Below are positions 12,847 to 23,178 of a stretch of 64,000 nucleotides of DNA, in pieces (positions within the stretch are counted from its first letter, which is position 1; every line of letters begins with the position of its first letter). The notes beneath the pieces were generated by a model. The model worked only from the letters and a program-made list of their open reading frames with translations, searched no databases and had not been told where the DNA came from. The position numbers and the translations under genes were made by a program. This stretch comes from Flagellimonas marinaquae. Its GTDB lineage: Bacteria > Bacteroidota > Bacteroidia > Flavobacteriales > Flavobacteriaceae. Location: NCBI RefSeq assembly GCF_023716465.1, contig NZ_CP092415.1, positions 2,457,501 through 2,521,500 on the forward strand. Reading direction: 5' to 3'.

Positions 12847-14664
12847 ATGAAAAAATCAATCAGTTTAATAGCTTTTGGTATTGCAATAGTCCTTGTTTTT
12901 TTCGCTTCTTGCAAGGAGCAAAATCAAGTTCGGCCCCCTAGAATCATTACCGAAAATAATTTATCCTATCTGGTTCAGGATAGTATTTTGATCCCAACAG
13001 CCGATGGCGCAAATATCCACGCAGTCATCGTTCGAAATTCCGAATTGGAGGAGCCAGCCCCAACTATTTTGTTCCACACCATTTATGCCCGTAAAAATGA
13101 CCTGGACAGGGCAAAGATGGCGGCCGACCATGGGTATATAGGTGTGGTTTCGTACACCCGAGGCAAAGGATTGAGCCCGGATTCGATTGTACCCTATAAA
13201 TATGAGGCAAAAGATGCGTATGAAGTAATCGACTGGATCAGCAAACAGGATTGGAGCAATCAAAAGGTGGGGATGTACGGTGGAAGTTACGTCGGGTTTA
13301 CCCAATGGGCCGCGGTAAAGCACAAGGTGCATCCAGCGCTTAAAACTATTGTGCCCTCCGTTTCGGCAGCACCCGGTATAGCCGAACCTATGGAGAATGG
13401 CATTCATTGGAACTTTCATTATCCTTGGAACCATTATGTGTCCAACAACAAGTATTTGGACACCACATTGTATAACAATTGGCAACGTTGGAACAATTTG
13501 AACATGAAATGGTTTGAAACCGGCGTAGCTTACAAAGCAATGGATAGCTTGGATGGATTGCCCAATCCACAGTTTCGAGAGCGCTTATTACACCCAACAT
13601 ATGATGATTATTGGCAAAACATGATGCCCTACAAAGAAGAATTTGCCCATATCAATATTCCTGTTTTGGCCACGACTGGATATTATGATGGGGGGCAAGT
13701 GGGAACACAGTATTATTTAAAAGAACATACCAAATTCAATACAAATGCAGCACATTATCTAGTGATTGGACCCTACACCCATTTTGGGGCCCAGGAGAAA
13801 CCTAATAGTCATATTATGGGATACGATATTGATCCAGTGGCCCAAATTGATATCACAAGCTTGATCTTTGAGTGGTTTGATCATATTTTAAAAGGAAAAG
13901 CCAAACCAGCATTGTTACAGGATAAAATCAATTATCAGGTAATGGGAGCGAACAAATGGGGTCATGCCCCTTCTTTGCAGGCCATGGCAACTGATACTTT
14001 AAAGTATTATGTGGGCAATGGGCGTTCGGGTGTAACTTTCGCATCTTTGTTTGGAACGGGAAACAATGACAAGGATGAACATTACACTCTCTCCCAGCAA
14101 CCCTTGGATTCCAGCGAATATTTGGAACAGGTCATAGATTTCACAGACCGTAGCAATCGAACTTGGAATTCGAGTGGATGGCGGGCAATTGTTGCGGATA
14201 GCCTTATGGTTGGCGGTGGTTTTTCTTTTATCACCCAACCTTTTGAATCCGATGTTGAATTGAACGGATCCTTTGGTGGCGAAATTTCGGTGTCCATTAA
14301 CAAAAAAGATTTTGATTATACGGTAGTCTTGTTTGAACAGACCCCAGATGGTAAATTCTTTGCCTTGACCTTGCCCTATAAGGCTAGAGCCAGTTTTGCG
14401 CATAGTCTTGAGAAACGGCAGTTGTTGATACCCAACAAGAAAACAAAACTTCCTTTTGGCATTGTGCGGATCACCAGTAAAAAGATAAGCAAGGGCAGTC
14501 GTTTGGTAGTGGTCGTCAACGGAAACAAAGAACCCTTTACGGAAATAAATTATGGAACGGGAAAAAATGTCAGCGAAGAAACCATCAATGATGCGAAAGA
14601 GCCTTTGATCATTAAATGGTATGGGGATGGTTATATTGAAATACCGTTAAGGATAGATAAGTAA
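12847..14664 (+). CDS. CocE/X-Pro dipeptidyl-peptidase-like lipoprotein hydrolase
   Basis: 605 residues with a lipoprotein signal (LVFFASC, Cys22). An alpha/beta-hydrolase domain holds the nucleophile motif YGGSYVG (Ser147), a likely acid Asp in TTGYYDGG and a His in GPYTHFG. The C-terminal third is the beta-sandwich (PepX_C) of this family, with the FTDRSNRTW segment. Members cut X-Pro dipeptides, cocaine or other acyl esters, so the substrate is open. It lies 86 bp after the two-component system and may be a target of it. Confidence 0.88.
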   Translation: MKKSISLIAFGIAIVLVFFASCKEQNQVRPPRIITENNLSYLVQDSILIPTADGANIHAVIVRNSELEEPAPTILFHTIYARKNDLDRAKMAADHGYIGVVSYTRGKGLSPDSIVPYKYEAKDAYEVIDWISKQDWSNQKVGMYGGSYVGFTQWAAVKHKVHPALKTIVPSVSAAPGIAEPMENGIHWNFHYPWNHYVSNNKYLDTTLYNNWQRWNNLNMKWFETGVAYKAMDSLDGLPNPQFRERLLHPTYDDYWQNMMPYKEEFAHINIPVLATTGYYDGGQVGTQYYLKEHTKFNTNAAHYLVIGPYTHFGAQEKPNSHIMGYDIDPVAQIDITSLIFEWFDHILKGKAKPALLQDKINYQVMGANKWGHAPSLQAMATDTLKYYVGNGRSGVTFASLFGTGNNDKDEHYTLSQQPLDSSEYLEQVIDFTDRSNRTWNSSGWRAIVADSLMVGGGFSFITQPFESDVELNGSFGGEISVSINKKDFDYTVVLFEQTPDGKFFALTLPYKARASFAHSLEKRQLLIPNKKTKLPFGIVRITSKKISKGSRLVVVVNGNKEPFTEINYGTGKNVSEETINDAKEPLIIKWYGDGYIEIPLRIDK

Positions 14665-14710
14665 TACGATTGGAAATGTAGGTGATCAATATACAGGGGT
14701 GCCAAAAATA

Positions 14711-14739
14711 AAAAGGAGCTATTTTTAATAGCTCCTTTT
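14711..14739 (-). terminator. Strong hairpin terminator, probably the original terminator of tRNA-Arg
   Basis: A perfect 12-bp stem (AAAAGGAGCTAT / ATAGCTCCTTTT) with a 5-base loop. Read on the minus strand it is followed by two T-runs (TTTTTATTTTT), and on the plus strand it also ends in T. It lies two bases beyond the truncated copy of the tRNA-Arg 3' end at 14742. Without the integrated element it would stand just downstream of the tRNA. It may also serve the peptidase gene ending at 14664. Confidence 0.85.
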
Positions 14740-14741
14740 CT

Positions 14742-14765
14742 GTGACCGCGGCAGGATTCAAACCT
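14742..14765. repeat. Left attachment-site copy (duplicated tRNA-Arg 3' end)
   Basis: 24 bases from GTGACCGCGG to TCAAACCT are identical to 22530-22553. On the minus strand they correspond to the discriminator base, the 3' acceptor strand and much of the T-arm of tRNA-Arg. The sequence then departs from the tRNA, so this is a fragment and not a functional tRNA gene. Confidence 0.9.
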
Positions 14766-15213
14766 CATTCCGCAAGCCCTATATTTAAAGGATTTTAAGA
14801 CCTTACAAAAACTGTTGACCGAATTACTGTCTTTTAATTTGGTCGTAATTCTTGATGATTCAACTTTCGATATAAAGATAATAATTTTAAATGTTTGAAA
14901 TAACCTCAAACAAGAGTAAGCCCATTTTGAAATAATTAGAATCCTGATAAGTCATTGGTCAGTTTTGAAGCCCTGAGTCTTACCTTCAACTTTTGCAATT
15001 GGTCTCTATCGGTTTTTTGTAGTGTTTGGAAAGATAAGTTCAATCAACATCTCCTAATAAAAAAACTGAATTTATTGATGGCTTGGCACACCAAAGAAAG
15101 GTATTTGGGTTTTCACGCTCGCGTGAAAAAACGAATAGCAAGAGGGTGATGCGCAATTTGCGCTATCACAGTTGTTTTAGGGTTTTCAACACATTGAAAA
15201 CCAGTTAATTGAA
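14766..15213. other. Non-coding left end of the element with three tandem hairpins
   Basis: No convincing gene. A 64-codon frame at 14955-15149 is open but runs through two hairpins and has no recognisable product. Three inverted repeats stand in a row: TTTTCACGC / GCGTGAAAA at 15110-15129 (2-base loop), GTGAT.GCGCAA / TTGCGC.ATCAC at 15146-15169, and GGTTTTCAA / TTGAAAACC at 15181-15202 (4-base loop). They may be recombinase arm sites, an origin-like structure or remnants of a palindromic repeat family. Confidence 0.5.
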
Positions 15214-15411
15214 ATGATTTTGGAATACTATACCCAAACCGGGGTTACAGTAGATTTTTCCGAAATCTACAGTAAATCCTTTGGGAAGCCCTATAAACAT
15301 TGGAAATTTTTGACGAAAAAATTGACGCAATTTGACGAAAAATCAAAATTGGGCCTATGGAAAAGCAATCTAAAGCTTAAAATAACGGGAGGGAAGGTTG
15401 GAAAGATATAA
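15214..15411 (+). CDS. Small hypothetical protein
   Basis: 65 residues, Lys-rich with aromatic residues (EYYTQTGVTVDFSEIYSKS), starting 12 bp after a hairpin. No family recognised, no membrane segment or signal peptide. It could be a remnant of a larger gene, since it lies in otherwise empty DNA at the left end of the element. Coding status is uncertain. Confidence 0.35.
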   Translation: MILEYYTQTGVTVDFSEIYSKSFGKPYKHWKFLTKKLTQFDEKSKLGLWKSNLKLKITGGKVGKI

Positions 15412-15899
15412 ACTTAAAGGCATAGATTTTTGGATTCCAAAACGCGATGAGAAGAACATATCCTATGAATAGAAAAAGTTGCCTCGCTCAGTAAATTAGT
15501 TTGGCAAGATTTGGGGCTTGCAGCACTTCACTCCGTTTCGTTCGCTTTTATATCGATTTCTATTTCAAGACCAGGTTTTTTAGGCACCGTTTTATTGAAC
15601 TTTCACTCTTAAACAAGTTCATTGATTCTAAGGAGTTTACTTTTTCGGTACACTTAATTGGTTTCCCATTTAGACCCTTTATTACCCCTATAATAAAGTT
15701 CTATTTCTCAATACAGATTGACTGTTTTAACCTCTTTTCATCGAAAACCCAATTTTTTATAAATGGAATTTTCCTACATTTATAAAAATCCTATTGAACG
15801 ATTCCAGTATTAGCTGATCACACATCAATTTTATTCCAATTTGGGCAGATAGGATGTACTTGCCCATATAAGTAAGTAGGCAACAAGCTAAAAAACCAA
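15412..15899. other. Intergenic stretch without a recognisable gene
   Basis: AT-rich DNA with a 94-codon plus-strand frame (15501-15785) of improbable composition (mostly Phe, Ile, Leu) that I do not accept as a gene. A purine-poor segment near 15525-15562 (CACTTCACTCCGTTTCGTTC) looks like an intergenic repeat but has no second copy here. The promoter of the T9SS gene at 15900 should lie at the right end; no clear match to the -33/-7 consensus was found. Confidence 0.4.
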
Positions 15900-18800
15900 A
15901 TGAAACTTAACTTATTTTTACTTTTATTGGTATACTCAATTTCTTCATACTCACAATGTTTTGATTGCGGACAAAGTATTGGAGGTCATGTTGAAGATGT
16001 TGTTTTAGATATCGACAAGGCTTCCGATGGAATTATATTAATATATACTGATCAGTCTAGTAATAGCACCATTCGTAAATATGATTTTGACTGCAATGTT
16101 ATATGGACTAATAATGTACTTGCTCCAAGTGGAATGTTTATCCGAGATGCGACAATAGATAACAATGACAATATTTATACAGTTGTTTCAAATTATGGAA
16201 ACAATCGCAACATTAACGGGGTAGTTATCGAGCAAGGAAGCAGCTTAGTAAGGCTGAACGCAAATGGAGATGTTGAATGGGCAAAAAAGTTCAGTGATGA
16301 AAAGCACTTAAATCGCAAAATCCACATTTGGATGAACAATCTTTTTGTTGTCGGACAAATTGACCAATCAATAAACACAAATATAGGATTGACAATTCCC
16401 AATGGATATGGAAGTCAATATTTTGCAGCAAAATACGACCTTGCAGGTAACCTAATAGATTCGGAACATTTTGGTGGAAATTACAATGAAACATTTTTTG
16501 ATTCGCAAATTGATGAAAACGGAAATATTTATTTAACCGGGTTCTTCACGGATTATACCAATCATATTTCGCACTTGTACAAAATTAATTCTTCTCTTGA
16601 CTTAGTTTGGTCGCAAGAATTATCAAATAATCCAGCTGAAAGGTCATTTCAACCCATGACCATTTACTATAATACATCGAATCAAAAATTGTATGTATGG
16701 GCCAAGTACAAAATGGCCGCAAACTTTTACAATAACTCAATAACGGTCAGTAATGACTGTACTATTGGAAGTGTAATAATGGAAATTTCCAAAATTAACG
16801 GTGATTTGGATAATTATACGGTCATTGACAATTGTGGATTTTTACAATCGGTGGGGAATGGCATTGGCAGTGTTGAACAGAGAAGCTTTCTGGCACACGA
16901 AGGTTCCAATCTATATATTTTATCAAGTTTTAGAAATGAAATTGAAATTGGTGATCAAACCTTAAGTACTTCTCAAACAATTCACAATGATTACAATGTG
17001 GATTTGATTTTGCACAAGATAGATTTAACGAATTTTTCTTCAGAATTAATTCTCAGATCAACTGGTGAGCAATATTATGACTCATCACCATATTATGATC
17101 TTGCAGGACCCATAGTTGCTCACAATGGAAGTATTCATATGTCATCTTCTTTTATGAGTTTTCCAATGACAATCAATGGAAATATCATAGATAACAACAG
17201 TGGAAACAATGCAAGGGACGTTTTATATTATAAACATATTTTAGACAAAACTGATGCTGAGGGTGTAATATCCATTGAAAACACGTGCGTTTCAGACGTA
17301 ACTGAGTTTGAAATCAACGGTGATTTTGATTCCATCATTTGGGACTTTGATGATCCTACGTCAGGAACCGATAATACCTCAACCCTAAATAATCCAAGTC
17401 ATATATTCACCACTAAAGGAACCTATAGTGTCACTGCCGAGGTGACCTGTGGAACGGAGTCAGAAATTATTCATGTTGAAGTTGTTATTACAGATACCCC
17501 AATGGCACGTCAAATTCCGGATATTTATGCTTGTGAGGACGTTTTTGGCGGACAAATTTCAAACTCATTTGACACATCTTCAATAGAAAATGATTTGATA
17601 GGAAACCAGTTGGGGGTTACCATAAAGTACTTTGATGGCAATGGTGTTGAATTGCCAAGTCCCCTTCCCAATCCCATGTCCAATACGCTTCTTGGGCAAG
17701 AAACAATTATCGCTAGAGTGGCATATACTGATAACTTGACTTGTTTTACAGAGGTACAGTTTGACCTAATTGTCAATTCAATTCCAGAAATAACCACAAT
17801 TGGCAATCTATATGTCTGCGATGATGACTATGACGGAATTTCCGAGTTTGACCTCAGTAATGTAACGGATGATTTGTTAAATGGACAAACAGGAATGTTA
17901 GTTGAATTTTTCCATGAAGATGGACAACAATTGCCCAATCCATTACCAAATACCATATTTAATACGGTATCTCATCAAGAGACAATTATGGCAAAAATAA
18001 CCGATCTAAGTACAAACTGCTTTCTGGAAACCACTTTTGATTTGGTGGTACATCCTTTGCCCGTAGCCAACCCATTAGAGATTTTAAATGGATGTGATGA
18101 CAACGATGATGGCATCTCGGAGTATTTTGACACATCCAACATAGAAACCCAAGTGCTCAATGGGCAAACCGGAAAAAGGGTTACTTATTTTGACCAAGAT
18201 GGAAATCAATTGCCAAGCCCTCTACCAAATCCTTACACAAACACCATTATGTACAATGAACATATAACGGTGAGGGTTACCGACAATGTTACAACTTGTT
18301 TTGCCGAGACCATACTGGAGTTAAAAACCTCGGCACAACCAAAAATAAACCAACCCGATAACTTATATAGCTGCGATTTAGGGAATGGATATAGTGAATT
18401 TGACACTTCTAATATAGAACAACAACTCATTGGAAATCAATCCGGTTTGGAGGTAACCTTTTATGATTCGGACAAAAACTTGCTTCCAAGTCCATTGCCT
18501 ATACTGTTCCAAAATACAGAACCATTTTCACAAACTATCGGTGTAAGGGTCGAAAATGCAACTAACTCTATTTGTTATTCAGAAACATCTTTTGATTTGA
18601 TCGTAACGGCCCTACCCGAAATCGACTTGGAAGATGAATATTTCATTTGCAATTTGGAACCATCAATATCTTTAAATGTTAATCCTGGGTTTGACTCTTA
18701 TCGTTGGACTTCTGAAGGTGGCACGCAGATTTCAGATACAAACAATGCGGAAATTGTGGAAGAAGGAAGCTATACGCTAACTGTCAATCAGGATGAGAAT

Positions 18801-19313
18801 GGAATTGTATGTGAAAATGTCTTCAATTTTAAGCTTGTACGTTCTGTTCCACCTGTAATTGAAAAAGTAAATCATGGCGAACTTGGAAATAATTTCATTG
18901 AAATTATCGCTTCTGGTGATGGTGATTTCGAATACTCCATTGATGGCATAAATTATCAGGACAGTAATTATTTTTCAAATGTTCATGGTGGTTCACATAC
19001 CGTTTTCGTTCGAGACAAAGAAGGTTGCGGAGAAGATTCAGATGAAATAACCCTAATTGACTATCCAAAATTTTTCACACCAAATAATGATGGCTACAAT
19101 GACTTTTGGCATATCCATGGAATTGAGGCTTTCCCTGACCTGAAAGTATTTATTTTTGATAGATATGGTAAATTATTGACCCAATTATCATCTTTTGATT
19201 TAGGATGGGATGGCTTTTATAATAACGAAAAGATGATGCCCAGTGATTATTGGTTTAAGGCAGATCTGGGAAATGGCCGAATCTTTTCTGGACATTTCTC
19301 ACTAACTTATTAA
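15900..19313 (+). CDS. Large secreted repeat protein with PKD domain and T9SS type B sorting domain
   Basis: 1137 residues. A signal peptide (ends near SSYSQ) is followed by a propeller-like region of repeated short strands (about 30-440), a PKD-like domain (about 450-540, WDFDDPTSG), four consecutive modules of about 93 residues (starting near 540, 635, 726 and 820), another beta domain (about 910-985) and a gliding-motility-type C-terminal sorting domain (about 1055-1137, FFTPNNDGYNDFW and VFIFDRYGKLL). Each module carries a C-[DE]-D start, SEFDTSNIE-like and LPSPLPNP-like motifs and a late Cys. The T9SS exports such proteins to the surface or medium. Function is probably adhesion. It is carried inside the tRNA-Arg element. 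Confidence 0.88.
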   Translation: MKLNLFLLLLVYSISSYSQCFDCGQSIGGHVEDVVLDIDKASDGIILIYTDQSSNSTIRKYDFDCNVIWTNNVLAPSGMFIRDATIDNNDNIYTVVSNYGNNRNINGVVIEQGSSLVRLNANGDVEWAKKFSDEKHLNRKIHIWMNNLFVVGQIDQSINTNIGLTIPNGYGSQYFAAKYDLAGNLIDSEHFGGNYNETFFDSQIDENGNIYLTGFFTDYTNHISHLYKINSSLDLVWSQELSNNPAERSFQPMTIYYNTSNQKLYVWAKYKMAANFYNNSITVSNDCTIGSVIMEISKINGDLDNYTVIDNCGFLQSVGNGIGSVEQRSFLAHEGSNLYILSSFRNEIEIGDQTLSTSQTIHNDYNVDLILHKIDLTNFSSELILRSTGEQYYDSSPYYDLAGPIVAHNGSIHMSSSFMSFPMTINGNIIDNNSGNNARDVLYYKHILDKTDAEGVISIENTCVSDVTEFEINGDFDSIIWDFDDPTSGTDNTSTLNNPSHIFTTKGTYSVTAEVTCGTESEIIHVEVVITDTPMARQIPDIYACEDVFGGQISNSFDTSSIENDLIGNQLGVTIKYFDGNGVELPSPLPNPMSNTLLGQETIIARVAYTDNLTCFTEVQFDLIVNSIPEITTIGNLYVCDDDYDGISEFDLSNVTDDLLNGQTGMLVEFFHEDGQQLPNPLPNTIFNTVSHQETIMAKITDLSTNCFLETTFDLVVHPLPVANPLEILNGCDDNDDGISEYFDTSNIETQVLNGQTGKRVTYFDQDGNQLPSPLPNPYTNTIMYNEHITVRVTDNVTTCFAETILELKTSAQPKINQPDNLYSCDLGNGYSEFDTSNIEQQLIGNQSGLEVTFYDSDKNLLPSPLPILFQNTEPFSQTIGVRVENATNSICYSETSFDLIVTALPEIDLEDEYFICNLEPSISLNVNPGFDSYRWTSEGGTQISDTNNAEIVEEGSYTLTVNQDENGIVCENVFNFKLVRSVPPVIEKVNHGELGNNFIEIIASGDGDFEYSIDGINYQDSNYFSNVHGGSHTVFVRDKEGCGEDSDEITLIDYPKFFTPNNDGYNDFWHIHGIEAFPDLKVFIFDRYGKLLTQLSSFDLGWDGFYNNEKMMPSDYWFKADLGNGRIFSGHFSLTY

Positions 19314-19332
19314 GAGGTAGTGGGGGCAAATC

Positions 19333-19350
19333 AAAGTTCAAATAAACGAT
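19333..19350 (+). repeat. Cassette-boundary repeat, copy 1
   Basis: AAAGTTCAAATAAACGAT, 20 bp after the stop of the T9SS gene and 64 bp before the RhuM/Doc gene. The 14-bp core AGTTCAAATAAACG (19335-19348) recurs exactly at three further places, each at the end of a gene. Confidence 0.85.
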
Positions 19351-19414
19351 AACTAACGACTGAAAGTGATTAAACAAAAATTATCTCAAACAGAAGGTTT
19401 CAGTTCATAACTAT

Positions 19415-20398
19415 ATGAATACGGATAAGCAAATAGAGATTTATCAGGCCAATGACGGTTCCACTCAAATTAATGTTCAATTTGAACAAGATACCGTTTG
19501 GTTAACCCAAGCGCAAATGGGTCAACTATTTGAAAAAAACAAGCGTACGATTTCAGAGCATATACGAAACATTTTTAAAGAAGGTGAACTGGATGAAAAA
19601 CTGGTTGTCCGGAAATCCCGGACAACCACTCAACACGGTGCCATTGCAGGGAAAACACAAACCTCCAACGTTAACTTGTACAATCTAGATGTTATAATTT
19701 CTGTAGGTTATAGGGTAAAATCTCAAAGAGGTACACAATTTAGAATATGGGCTTCCAATATTCTAAAGGAATATCTTATACAAGGGTACGCTGTAAATGA
19801 AAAACGTTTGGCCCAAAAGGAGCAAGAAGTACAACTTTTAAAAGGAGGCATACAAATATTAAGCAGGGCCATTGAAGAAAAAGTAGAAGATAATGAATGG
19901 CTTAAAGTTTATGCTAAAGGTTTAAGTTTATTAGACGATTACGACCATGAGCAATTAGATGCCAAAGGATTAACTGCAAGAGCGGCAAGCTATCCGACTA
20001 TAGAGGCTTATTTTGAGGTAGTGGATCAAATGAAATCTGAATTTGACAGTGCTGTATTTGGAAAGGAAAAGGACAACAGTTTTCAAAGCTCTCTAAGCCA
20101 AGTCGCAAAGGGTTTTGGCGAAAAGGATTTTTATCCGACATTAGAAGAAAAGGCTGCAATGCTTTTATACTTGATTGTGAAAAACCATTCATTTGTAGAT
20201 GGTAATAAACGAATTGCGGCAGCATGTTTTCTAAAATTCTTGCAACATAACAATATGCTTTTTAATAGTAAACAACAACCAATAATCAATAACGAAACAC
20301 TAGCTAGCTTAACCTTATTTATAGCATCTAGCAAACCTGAGGAAATGGAAACAGTAAAGCGTTTGGTGATCAGCGTTTTAAATAGAAGCAATCAATAG
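19415..20398 (+). CDS. RhuM-family protein with C-terminal Fic/Doc domain
   Basis: 327 residues. The N-terminal part (about 5-150) matches virulence-RhuM proteins (VWLTQAQMGQLFEKNKRTIS and GYRVKSQRGTQFRIWA). The C-terminal part is a Fic/Doc fold with HSFVDGNKR (258-266). Lys in place of the second Gly of the Fic motif is the form seen in Doc, a kinase that modifies elongation factor Tu, and not in AMP-transferring Fic. No antitoxin is recognised next to it; the N-terminal domain might supply control. Such proteins travel on mobile elements as toxin or defence-like cargo. The TAG stop is part of the second boundary repeat. Confidence 0.85.
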   Translation: MNTDKQIEIYQANDGSTQINVQFEQDTVWLTQAQMGQLFEKNKRTISEHIRNIFKEGELDEKLVVRKSRTTTQHGAIAGKTQTSNVNLYNLDVIISVGYRVKSQRGTQFRIWASNILKEYLIQGYAVNEKRLAQKEQEVQLLKGGIQILSRAIEEKVEDNEWLKVYAKGLSLLDDYDHEQLDAKGLTARAASYPTIEAYFEVVDQMKSEFDSAVFGKEKDNSFQSSLSQVAKGFGEKDFYPTLEEKAAMLLYLIVKNHSFVDGNKRIAAACFLKFLQHNNMLFNSKQQPIINNETLASLTLFIASSKPEEMETVKRLVISVLNRSNQ

Positions 20399-20412
20399 TT
20401 CAAATAAACGAT
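20397..20412 (+). repeat. Cassette-boundary repeat, copy 2
   Basis: AGTTCAAATAAACGAT; its first two bases are the last two bases of the RhuM/Doc stop codon. The next gene begins 8 bp later. Confidence 0.85.
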
Positions 20413-20420
20413 TCAAATTA

Positions 20421-20828
20421 TTGGTGAAATACATTGCTCAAATATGGATTCTAACAATTATAACCTCTCCACTGGTGTTGGCACTTGTTTTGGGAATTAT
20501 AATTAATAATTCGAGCCTTTCCGAGATATTTGAATCTTATGAGTTTTTTATTTTAATGTTCTTGGTTGGTTCCTTGTTTTCAATTCCTGCAATGGTTGTT
20601 TTTGGATTATTACAGAGAAGTTTAAAATCCTCTATACCAATATGGAGAAGGAAGTTGATACTTTCAATCTATTCCTTTTTATCCGTTTGGATTACTTTTT
20701 ATATTGTTGATGAAGGGTTTATAACGGGATGGACAGATCAAACAGTTTGGCCATTAATTTATTCACTAATCATAGTAATTGGTGTTTGGATTTTTAGACT
20801 TCCAAACACGAATAGATTGGCACAATAA
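20421..20828 (+). CDS. Four-helix membrane protein of unknown function
   Basis: 135 residues with four hydrophobic segments (about 5-28, 38-60, 72-92 and 108-127). The start is TTG at 20421 or GTG at 20424; no ATG lies near the 5' end. No family recognised. It is the only gene between boundary repeats 2 and 3 and lies so close to them that it probably lacks its own promoter. A role as an immunity or accessory protein for the RhuM/Doc protein is possible but there is no sequence support. Confidence 0.65.
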   Translation: MVKYIAQIWILTIITSPLVLALVLGIIINNSSLSEIFESYEFFILMFLVGSLFSIPAMVVFGLLQRSLKSSIPIWRRKLILSIYSFLSVWITFYIVDEGFITGWTDQTVWPLIYSLIIVIGVWIFRLPNTNRLAQ

Positions 20829-20832
20829 AATT

Positions 20833-20850
20833 AAAGTTCAAATAAACGAT
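20833..20850 (+). repeat. Cassette-boundary repeat, copy 3
   Basis: AAAGTTCAAATAAACGAT, identical over 18 bp to copy 1. It lies 4 bp after the preceding stop codon and 6 bp before the next ATG. Confidence 0.85.
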
Positions 20851-20856
20851 CAATCA

Positions 20857-21057
20857 ATGTTCTTATCTTACGTTTACAAAATAGTAACCTATTTCCTAGT
20901 TATCTTCGTAATGGCAGACATTGTAATCTTGCTCCAGTACGCCTTGAAAGATTATGGAGAACCTTTGAAGATGGAAAATATCAATAGGACCACGATTATC
21001 TTTTTTTCTGGCACAGTTATTTTGCTTGTGCTAGAAAGATTGCTGAGAAACAGATAA
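20857..21057 (+). CDS. Small two-helix membrane protein
   Basis: 66 residues from the ATG at 20857, with hydrophobic segments at about 7-28 and 46-61 and a basic C-terminus (LERLLRNR). The frame is open farther upstream but that part would read through the boundary repeat and the end of the previous gene. Its TAA stop overlaps copy 4 of the repeat. No family recognised. Confidence 0.6.
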   Translation: MFLSYVYKIVTYFLVIFVMADIVILLQYALKDYGEPLKMENINRTTIIFFSGTVILLVLERLLRNR

Positions 21058-21071
21058 AGTTCAAATAAACG
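21056..21071 (+). repeat. Cassette-boundary repeat, copy 4
   Basis: AAAGTTCAAATAAACG, overlapping the TAA stop of the 66-residue protein by two bases and directly abutting the stop codon of the converging recombinase gene at 21072. No gene starts after it on the plus strand, which argues against a role as a translation or transcription start signal. Confidence 0.85.
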
Positions 21072-22307
21072 TTATAATATTGGTTTGATTTTAAGCTTCT
21101 TTTGTAAAGCCAACATATCTTCAGATATTTTTTTATCCAAAACACGAGCATAAATTTGAGTAGTGGCCAATTTGGTATGTCCCAACATTTTGGATACCGT
21201 TTCTATTGGTACACCATTTGATAAAGTCACTGTTGTGGCGAATGTATGGCGCGCCATATGAAAAGTTAAATTCTTTTTAATTCCAACTGCATCTGCAATC
21301 TCTTTTAAATATAGATTGGTTTTTTCGTTGCTGATTTTTGGTAAAAGTGTTCTTGAGTATGATGTAACAGGGTGGTTTTTGTATTTATCCAAAATATTAA
21401 TGGCTGGTCCTAATAGAGGGACTCTGACAGAAGTTTTCGTTTTTAGTCTTTTTGTAGCAATCCAGTTATTACCATCTGTTCCAACAATTAGATTGATTTT
21501 TGTCAACTTCATAAGGTCTGAATAACTGATTCCAGTATAACAGCTGAAAACGAAAAGGTCCCTAACCCGATCTAATCGCTCAATTAGGAAGTTATAGGTT
21601 TCTAAATTGTTTAGTTCGTTTGCAGTTAAGAATTCTCTTTGTTTTTGTTCAAATGTCGGTTTCCAACGCAAAAAGGGATCTCTATCAATCCATTCCAATT
21701 GATAAGCAAGATTGATGATTTTTCTAAGCCTTTGAAGATGCTTCATTACTGTATTATGGCTCATAGCCTTGGGATGACCCTTTGGATAGTAATTAACCAA
21801 AAACCTTTCAAGGTCTGAAATGAACTTGTAGTTAAGTTGACGTAGATAAACATCAGTTGTTTTTAAATTGTTTTTCAGAAATCTGTTAATGTAATTCTCG
21901 GTGATTCCAAAATTTCTAATGGTACCTGGGGCTAGAGTGTTTTCGATTTTTCTATTATGGTGTTCCAGTAAATCCAAAAGAGTTTTGGAGTTGATGTTTT
22001 CTCCGTTGTAAAGTGATTTGACCAATTGCGGAGTTATTAAGTCTCCCTTGTATTTTAAATCTTGGTAAATATTCAATAATCTAGCTTGAACTAGATTTAA
22101 ATGTCGATTGATTTCTTGTGACTCTTTTGTTTTTCCTTTTACTTTTTTGTTTTGGTTGTCCCAAAGATCAATATCGATCTTTCTCTTAATACCAATATTG
22201 GCTCTTTTCCCATTTGCGGTTACTCTTACAAAGATTTCCGCTTTATTTTTAATAGCTCGTGATTTGTTGATCCAGAATAGGATTGAAAAGGTGTGTGATG
22301 TTTTCAT
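21072..22307 (-). CDS. Tyrosine recombinase / integrase (Bacteroidota type)
   Basis: 411 residues from the ATG at 22307 (an in-frame ATG at 22346 is less likely). Arm-type DNA-binding domain at about 1-90 (SILFWINKSRAIKNKAEIFV), a SAM-like core-binding domain (about 95-200) and a catalytic domain with HMARHTFAT and LGHTKLATTQIYARV (box II His-x-x-Arg, His and the nucleophile Tyr). The box I segment reads SCYTGISYSDLMKL and lacks the usual Arg after TG, as in IntDOT-like enzymes of this phylum. It presumably inserted the element into tRNA-Arg. It reads away from the tRNA. Confidence 0.93.
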   Translation of the reverse strand: MKTSHTFSILFWINKSRAIKNKAEIFVRVTANGKRANIGIKRKIDIDLWDNQNKKVKGKTKESQEINRHLNLVQARLLNIYQDLKYKGDLITPQLVKSLYNGENINSKTLLDLLEHHNRKIENTLAPGTIRNFGITENYINRFLKNNLKTTDVYLRQLNYKFISDLERFLVNYYPKGHPKAMSHNTVMKHLQRLRKIINLAYQLEWIDRDPFLRWKPTFEQKQREFLTANELNNLETYNFLIERLDRVRDLFVFSCYTGISYSDLMKLTKINLIVGTDGNNWIATKRLKTKTSVRVPLLGPAINILDKYKNHPVTSYSRTLLPKISNEKTNLYLKEIADAVGIKKNLTFHMARHTFATTVTLSNGVPIETVSKMLGHTKLATTQIYARVLDKKISEDMLALQKKLKIKPIL

Positions 22308-22471
22308 AGTTGTCATCTTAGGGTTAAACGTTAAGATGAAAGTCAAATCAACTATGTACCAGTGTTTTAGGGTTTCATTCGGTCAACAGTGTTGACGATT
22401 TGATTTTGTTGACCGATTTGTTACCGATTGATATGAAATCAAAACAAATTAAATGATGCCCTAAAAACGCT

Positions 22472-22506
22472 GAAAACCTTACAGTTATAGATTCTGTAAG
22501 GTTTTC
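22472..22506. terminator. 13-bp perfect hairpin between the integrase and tRNA-Arg
   Basis: GAAAACCTTACAG / CTGTAAGGTTTTC with a 9-base loop. On the minus strand it is followed within a few bases by a short T-run, so it could end the tRNA-Arg transcript now that the original terminator has been displaced. It could also be a structural part of the attachment region. Confidence 0.6.
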
Positions 22507-22529
22507 TGTTTGTTTGGCATTGCTGCCCA

Positions 22530-22553
22530 GTGACCGCGGCAGGATTCAAACCT
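22530..22553. repeat. Right attachment-site copy within tRNA-Arg
   Basis: Same 24 bases as 14742-14765. It covers the tRNA 3' end from the discriminator base through most of the T-arm, so integration restored an intact tRNA gene. Confidence 0.9.
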
Positions 22554-22604
22554 GCAACCTTCTGAGCCGTAATCAGATGCGCTATTCAGTTGCGCCACGC
22601 GGCC
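22531..22604 (-). tRNA. tRNA-Arg(ACG)
   Basis: A full cloverleaf of 74 bases on the minus strand: acceptor GGCCGCG / CGCGGTC with one G-T pair, D-stem GCGC / GCGC, anticodon stem TCTGA / TCAGA with loop TTACGGC (anticodon ACG), T-stem GCAGG / CCTGC with loop TTTGAAT, discriminator A. CCA is not encoded. It is the insertion site of the element to its left. Confidence 0.97.
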
Positions 22605-22665
22605 TTATTTAAGGGCTGCAAATATATTTCTTTTTAACTTTACCACAAAACCCTAGCGAACAAAA

Positions 22666-23178
22666 ATGGATTTTGAACCCTACATTCGTGATATTAAGGA
22701 CTTCCCAAAACCGGGAGTGACTTTTAAGGATATAACGCCCCTATTAAAAAATGCCACAGCGCTGCAAAAGGCGGCCAATGCTTTGGTGGGGTTTATTGGC
22801 AATACGAAAATTGATAAAGTAGTAGGGGTGGACAGCCGAGGTTTTATTTTTGCTCCCATGTTGGCCGAAAAACTAGGTGCTGGTTTTGTAACTGTCCGAA
22901 AATCAGGAAAGCTGCCTTATACGACTATTTCTGAGTCCTATGATCTGGAATATGGAAAGGGGATCTTGGAAATCCACACGGACGCCATTGAGGAAGGTGA
23001 CAAGGTGTTGGTGCACGACGATGTACTGGCAACTGGCGGGACTGCCGAAGCCGTATGTAAATTAGTGGAGAAGCTAGGGGGAGAGGTGGTCCAGTGCAAT
23101 TTTCTAATCGAACTTTCCTTTTTAAAGGGGGGCGATAAGCTCAACGGTTATCCTGTAAAAGCTCTCTTGAGATATTAA
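22666..23178 (+). CDS. apt: Adenine phosphoribosyltransferase
   Basis: 170 residues, the usual family length. It salvages adenine with PRPP to make AMP in the cytoplasm. The PRPP-binding motif VLVHDDVLATGGTAEA, the GVDSRGFIFAPMLA loop and the FVTVRKSGKLPY segment are all present. It lies outside the tRNA-Arg element as chromosomal backbone. Its stop overlaps by 4 bp the stop of a converging 49-residue gene. Confidence 0.97.
   Translation: MDFEPYIRDIKDFPKPGVTFKDITPLLKNATALQKAANALVGFIGNTKIDKVVGVDSRGFIFAPMLAEKLGAGFVTVRKSGKLPYTTISESYDLEYGKGILEIHTDAIEEGDKVLVHDDVLATGGTAEAVCKLVEKLGGEVVQCNFLIELSFLKGGDKLNGYPVKALLRY

Follow-up and report, generated by a model that had tools for sequence, protein, structure and literature searches.

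Single-gene cassettes bounded by an 18-bp site in a tRNA-Arg island of Flagellimonas marinaquae, with a resolvase-type serine recombinase as candidate enzyme

A cassette array inside a tRNA-Arg island

Analysis of a 64,000-nt stretch of the Flagellimonas marinaquae genome (hereafter the window) pointed to mobile single-gene cassettes within a tRNA-Arg island, with a serine recombinase probably acting on the 18-bp sites between them. We assign this explanation as a whole a probability of about 0.63. Each cassette unit is a single co-oriented, short, AT-rich gene followed by the 18-bp site AAAGTTCAAATAAACGAT. Comparison with related genomes makes it almost certain that these cassettes are mobile and of a non-integron kind.

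The array lies within a 7.8-kb island, bounded on both sides by the terminal 24 bp of a tRNA-Arg gene (14742 and 22530). Genome G012 has no island here: its counterpart of the flanking S15 peptidase gene, with an 89% identical protein, adjoins the tRNA. The parts of the island are as follows.

14742..14765, no strand: island end, 24 bp repeating the tRNA-Arg 3' end from the T-loop, exact match to 22530-22553
14976..15803, + strand: leader, conserved 5' of cassette arrays elsewhere (blastn)
15588..15601, - strand: inverted site copy AGTTCAATAAAACG, equivalent of the copy upstream of the serine recombinase
15742..15782, + strand: promoter-like leader segment, conserved, ending TACATTTA
15785..15802, + strand: degenerate first (attI-like) site, 13/18 bases, from gapless alignment to the exact first sites of loci L013 and L055
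15900..19313, + strand: cassette 1, secreted protein with PKD and CHU_C (type IX secretion) domains
19333..19350, + strand: 18-bp site, 18/18 bases
19415..20398, + strand: cassette 2, RhuM-Fic/DOC protein, with a 99.1% identical cassette in locus L051
20395..20412, + strand: 18-bp site, 17/18 bases
20421..20828, + strand: cassette 3, membrane protein, four-helix according to the first-pass annotation, putative start codon
20833..20850, + strand: 18-bp site, 18/18 bases
20857..21057, + strand: cassette 4, 66-aa protein, two-helix according to the first-pass annotation
21056..21073, + strand: last 18-bp site, 17/18 bases, overlapping two stop codons
21072..22316, - strand: tyrosine recombinase with Arm-DNA-bind_5, SAM_5 and Phage_integrase domains, probable island integrase
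22530..22604, - strand: tRNA-Arg (ACG), the island's integration target

The leader had blastn matches at L013, L014, L016, L055, L058, L060, L061 and other loci. Cassette 1 had a partial 70% DNA match in L067, at an equal distance to the next site, and the proteins of cassettes 3 and 4 had no Pfam match. An Rfam scan of 14600-22700 revealed nothing beyond the tRNA. At 11 further loci, a copy of a tRNA 3' end was found 4.6-12 kb away, with scores of 14-27 against 8-12 for the next best. We also noted a tRNA-Met cassette island, L016 (host C1:972000-991900), that is 100% identical over 11.15 kb to L054 of genome G018. The flanking chromosome of the two species is only about 81% identical, implying a recent transfer of the whole island.

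The 18-bp site

The first-pass annotation had described a 14-bp repeat occurring four times, with one gene between successive copies. Both statements held: the core AGTTCAAATAAACG lies exactly at 19335, 20397, 20835 and 21058, all on the + strand, and a single gene separates each copy from the next. The proximity to gene 3' ends was also borne out. The core lies 21 nt after the CHU_C gene (ends 19313), overlaps the stop codon of the RhuM-Fic gene (ends 20398), lies 6 nt downstream of the four-helix gene (ends 20828) and directly abuts the two-helix gene (ends 21057), whose stop codon is overlapped by the full 18-bp site. The two reported stop-codon overlaps are thus correct for the 18-bp site, which overlaps two stops, and incorrect for the core, which overlaps one. 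The last copy had been placed at the stop of the recombinase, and the 18-bp site indeed overlaps the stop codon of this convergent gene. Features beyond those in the first-pass annotation are the upstream CHU_C cassette behind its degenerate first site, the conserved leader, the island ends and four other arrays in the host genome.

When up to two mismatches were allowed, the core occurred six times in the window against 0.94 expected, and none of 100 shuffles gave six. The host genome contained 18 exact and 15 one-mismatch copies of the 14-mer, compared with 3 for the reversed control. Sixteen of the 18 exact copies fell in five arrays (the window, L013, L014, L016 and L020), within each of which all sites lay on one strand, mostly with a single gene between copies. 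The two exact copies outside arrays, at C1:658206 (L015) and C1:2441563 (L017), may be lone cassettes or chance.

A consensus was built from 259 distinct sites, none with more than two mismatches, at 45 loci in the host and related genomes. The conserved part was [T/C]AAAGTTCAAATAAACGAT[T/G/A]. Its edges were sharp, with unconserved flanking bases. The 18-bp site may be read as an imperfect 8-2-8 palindrome, AAAGTTCA AA TAAACGAT.

Distribution

Among 35 congeners, 16-mers with at most one mismatch numbered at least three in 24 genomes, one or two in 8 and none in 3, while the reversed control gave at most two per genome. In other families of the order, 1 of 23 genomes had one such 16-mer. The exact 16-mer was present in 10 of 199 genomes of the family, and the exact 17-mer in 1 of 395 genomes of the phylum, which was the host itself. 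Among the matches listed, the named genomes were mostly Flagellimonas, Allomuricauda and Muricauda, together with Maribacter, Arenibacter, Euzebyella, Ulvibacterium, Pricia, Pseudozobellia and Aquimarina. The matches listed also included a 19-mer in contigs carrying the labels Lokiarchaeia and Alteromonadales MAG (L148, L109), which may be misbinned. Viral contigs contributed 12 stretches with one match apiece.

Structure and content of the cassettes

We examined 199 cassettes of 120-3000 bp from 43 of the 45 loci, L052 and L054 being dropped as duplicates. Their median length was 617 bp. The longest open reading frame ran along the site direction in 188 cassettes and against it in 10, and was missing in 1; exactly one frame of at least 60 aa in the site direction was found in 154. 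Stop codon and site were a median of 20.5 bp apart, and the quartiles of the main frame were 101, 155 and 222 aa. The cassettes were GC-poor, with a median of 33% and values below 41% in 198 of the 199, compared with 41.5% for the window outside the island.

The encoded proteins were diverse, with 183 proteins falling into 155 families. For 144 representatives, the best 25 families per scan included TPR, DinB, GNAT, ParE, peptidases, DUFs and a few PADLOC candidates. The PADLOC and PHROGs matches were scattered, and each SUKH model matched at most one of the 144 among the matches listed. Of the host cassette proteins scanned singly (n = 21), 12 had no Pfam match, 2 matched SUKH and 1 matched Hfx_Cass5. 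This last family ('Integron Cassette Protein'; L014:9223-9513, E 1.4e-17) also occurs in integron cassettes. In genome G178, apparently the same cassette occurs twice (L287:17783-18415 and L288:7729-8361), about 27 kb apart in one cluster, with equal protein start, length and 5' site variant.

Movement of single cassettes

Movement of single cassettes between arrays, with breakpoints at the site, was strongly supported by the sequence comparisons. An all-against-all comparison found single cassettes common to different arrays, in alignments that end at sites. The 572 distinct cassettes yielded 84 homologous pairs. Both flanks were unrelated in 78 of these and one flank in 3; the pair L103/L126 shares its context and is not to be counted. 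Weighting by family left both flanks unrelated in 43.3 of 48. Identity dropped from about 0.85 inside the cassette to about 0.3 outside, and the drop fell exactly at the site. Crossover mapping via shared site variants fixed no position within the 18 bp.

The cassettes of the window took part in this exchange. At L051 of Flagellimonas oceanensis, the RhuM-Fic (99.1%) and four-helix (98.5%) cassettes stand in reverse order with others between them, and the four-helix cassette recurs in L051, L072, L143 and L145. Different cassettes were also seen at the same tRNA in different species (L013/L055, L014/L058 and L020/L060). The first-pass annotation had left two readings, a short-repeat cassette system distinct from integrons, or the stepwise addition of genes at the end of the recombinase gene. 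It had named variable gene content between constant repeats as support for cassette behavior. Such variation was found, both as different cassettes at one tRNA across species and as single cassettes in unrelated contexts, and it supports the first reading. The second is contradicted by finding these cassettes elsewhere and in different order.

These comparisons also bear on whether a dedicated recombinase is needed at all. Genes could accumulate by homologous or illegitimate recombination, with the repeat being a passive remnant or serving as a terminator or uptake sequence, and the position of the sites at gene 3' ends is terminator-like. However, the breakpoints fall at an 18-bp site, which is short for homologous recombination, and the concentration of 16 of 18 exact genome copies in five arrays is unlike the scatter of uptake sequences. 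The sites also folded less than mid-cassette DNA. Minimum free energies of 100-nt windows (100 sampled) were -10.8/-11.5 at sites versus -14.9 in mid-cassette DNA, although the sites are also GC-poorer. We regard passive accumulation as the least probable of the alternatives considered.

The adjacent tyrosine recombinase

The tyrosine recombinase next to the array had been taken as linked to the repeat, and the presence of the same recombinase family beside other arrays had been suggested as a check. The link was not supported. A close tyrosine recombinase was found at 16 of the 45 loci, 5' of the array at 11 and convergent at its 3' end, as in the window, at 5. Relatives were present in 57 of the 199 family genomes, only 7 of which had the exact repeat, and the remaining 50 lacked it. 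For 5 of the 9 close copies in the host genome, no site with fewer than three mismatches occurred within the 20 kb read. Two host islands with such a recombinase, L091 and L093, are without cassette sites and carry part of the leader (235-270 bp, 87-89% identity).

The phylogeny of the enzyme followed the tRNA instead. A tRNA lay 207-230 bp upstream of 18 of 25 tyrosine recombinases. Those at Arg-ACG (5 rows), Lys-TTT (3) and Arg-CCT (3) formed single clades, and those at Arg-TCT and Pro-TGG did not. Over all groups, the tRNA target changed 10 times on the tree, versus 16.5 when shuffled, in a tree where some long branches meet and the joins between groups are unsure. This pattern suggests that the adjacent enzyme is probably the integrase of the tRNA-Arg island and not the cassette enzyme.

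A dual role was nevertheless weighed, in which the tyrosine recombinase acts on both the tRNA T-loop and the 18-bp sites, as is supposed for recombinase-associated acquired interbacterial defence (rAID) arrays. The site core GTTCAAAT resembles the T-loop motif GTTCRAAT, the integration point of islands, and the gene lies near the arrays at the 16 loci mentioned above. Its co-occurrence with the repeat was weak (p 0.007, or 0.017 with the host's own genome removed). The rAID arrays of Bacteroidales are moreover defined by a tyrosine recombinase (PMC12247911). Against these points, the clades track the tRNA target whereas one cassette site is common to them all, most family genomes with the gene lack the exact repeat, and arrays in other genera have a serine recombinase but no close tyrosine recombinase in the stretch read. 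We consider the dual role unlikely, and the clades, the cassette-less copies and the arrays without the gene led us to demote the tyrosine recombinase as cassette enzyme.

A serine recombinase at the array start

We infer a better candidate for the cassette enzyme in a resolvase-type serine recombinase encoded at the array start. Within the 45 loci, each a stretch of at most 20 kb, this gene or its fragments occurred at 16, always on the strand of the sites; both recombinases were found at 6 loci, and neither lay within the stretch at 19. The protein has a Pfam Resolvase domain, with Gin invertase and gamma-delta resolvase as the nearest solved chains. In NCBIfam its best matches were XisF and Mpi, both far below cut-off.

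The region around the gene was arranged in a regular way. In 29 of 36 rows, which are related and not independent sequences, an inverted copy of the site preceded the start by 89-94 bp. By mismatches in 14 bases, 21 of these copies had at most one, 2 had two and 6 had three. The seven rows without a copy comprised one truncated contig (L137), three sequences of 58-68% identity (L220, L235 and L141) and three distant ones (41-47%). The half-site GTTYA occurred upstream 3-6 times in 23 of the same 29 related rows and 0-2 times in six, compared with shuffled means of 0.7-1.9. The promoter-like segment, which we take to resemble Bacteroidota promoters, was strongly conserved and stood after the serine recombinase, or at the leader end where the gene was missing. 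The leader ended at an exact first site in L013 and L055 and at the degenerate one in the window; the first site was degenerate at several loci. The same layout appeared in other genera (G138 with two loci, G230, G247 and G108), and their array stretches as read contained no close tyrosine recombinase.

The island in the window is without the serine recombinase, and the three array copies in the host genome are broken, so the host arrays may be frozen. Together with the degenerate first site, the missing gene indicates that the array in the window is probably frozen. An intact but distant serine recombinase (42% identity) was seen on the 48-kb host contig C2 (L292, near 13846-14376), and is perhaps a plasmid resolvase. 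The distant serine recombinase of G108 had related motifs upstream. Neither it nor that of the second host contig (about 41-42%) was accompanied by an array of another repeat in the two patterns tried.

Across the family, the serine recombinase and the exact repeat co-occurred (4/7 versus 10/199, p 1e-4), also without the host's own genome (3/6 versus 9/198, p 0.001). However, 6 of the 10 family genomes with the exact repeat had no close serine recombinase. Two of these six have site counts (at most two mismatches) far above control. They are G178 with 51 sites and a remnant of the gene only, and G095 with 13 and no close copy, both counter-examples to the serine recombinase as cassette enzyme. 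Counts were at or near control in five others of the ten, G235, G084, G119, G076 and G247. They were clearly above it in G178, G095, G138 and G230, with a close serine recombinase in only G138 and G230. Part of the co-occurrence count may therefore be chance, and we lowered our confidence in the mechanism to the value given above on account of these near-control counts. A further point against the enzyme is that the array sites have no extra upstream subsites. The G178 remnant (L288:8460-8744), in an array without an intact copy, resembles the C-terminal part of a shorter serine recombinase type.

Arrays such as that of G178, without a nearby recombinase, and the 19 loci with neither gene might be explained by an unlinked enzyme, for example XerCD or one borne on a plasmid or phage. 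Such an enzyme would leave unexplained the constant spacing between the serine recombinase gene and a copy of the site, and we think it improbable, more so than a dual role of the tyrosine recombinase. Overall, the serine recombinase is probably the cassette enzyme, as judged from its genomic setting.

Proposed mechanism

In the mechanism that we favor, the resolvase-type serine recombinase encoded in the leader would recombine the 18-bp sites. Cassettes would be excised as circles and inserted at the first site or at another site of the array, and the leader promoter would express the nearest cassettes. The tyrosine recombinase would move the whole island, and the array in the window would probably be a frozen product.

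The ability to capture single genes precisely, and to assemble them into expressed arrays, is generally attributed to integrons with their folded attC sites. The chances are about even that the present arrays represent a second, independently evolved kind of integron, with a serine recombinase derived from plasmid or transposon resolvases and double-stranded 18-bp sites, by which cassettes are captured, shuffled and expressed, and which spreads among marine Flavobacteriaceae by tRNA islands. If so, cassette platforms have evolved more than once, in this instance around a short plain site and probably with a recombinase of a different class. The 18-bp tag also offers a simple handle for harvesting mostly unknown genes from marine Flavobacteriaceae.

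Comparison with known systems

The closest known systems are integrons, rAID arrays and pdif modules. In the titles and abstract openings of the literature consulted, we found no description of this system.

For integrons, we compared the features IntI, attI, attC and Pc, taken from PMC8618304. The likeness is considerable. The arrays here have tandem co-oriented single-gene cassettes with a 3' site and one-by-one mobility, and many begin with a conserved leader that includes a promoter-like segment and a candidate first site, degenerate at several loci. The genes are diverse, most have no known function, and one encodes a protein of Pfam Hfx_Cass5. In contrast to attC, the site here is a plain 18 bp, without attC boxes or extra folding. 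Pairs of R''/R' boxes were found near 2 of 199 sites versus 1 of 199 mid-cassette controls, in agreement with the first-pass observation that the 7-bp boxes are absent. Four tyrosine recombinases, chosen from the 25 of arrays or islands, scored 47-51 bits for integron integrase, against a cut-off of 265. With boxes at control level and these four recombinases far below the integron-integrase cut-off, membership among integrons was rejected. The probable enzyme also differs, being a serine recombinase here, whereas IntI is a tyrosine recombinase.

The pdif (dif) modules of Acinetobacter plasmids are likewise flanked by short recombination sites and undergo exchange. The pdif sites are Xer-dependent and 28 bp long. 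The present sites have 18-19 conserved bp, all point the same way within an array and are accompanied by a dedicated leader, and judged by length and orientation the two are set apart.

The predicted enzyme is most like the resolvases and invertases (Gin, gamma-delta/Tn3 resolvase and Mpi), with which it shares the Resolvase domain and tandem predicted site motifs upstream of the gene. Known members resolve or invert DNA segments, and the small resolvases normally act within one molecule. We know of no resolvase or invertase that moves gene cassettes.

The rAID arrays, originally reported by Ross et al. 2019, share with ours the co-oriented short low-GC genes and a conserved intergenic motif, here the 18-bp site. 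A tyrosine recombinase accompanies part of the present loci, upstream at 11 of the 45, convergent downstream at 5 and not seen at 29. The content differs, since the present arrays are not orphan-immunity arrays: SUKH accounts for 2 of 21 host cassette proteins and the rest is diverse. Further differences are the serine recombinase accompanying the site and the shuffling of single cassettes, in a comparison made by layout and content. The arrays are also treated in PMC12469244, and the mechanism of their biogenesis is named as an active research area in PMC12247911. If the proposed mechanism is correct, the way in which rAID-type arrays are built becomes testable.
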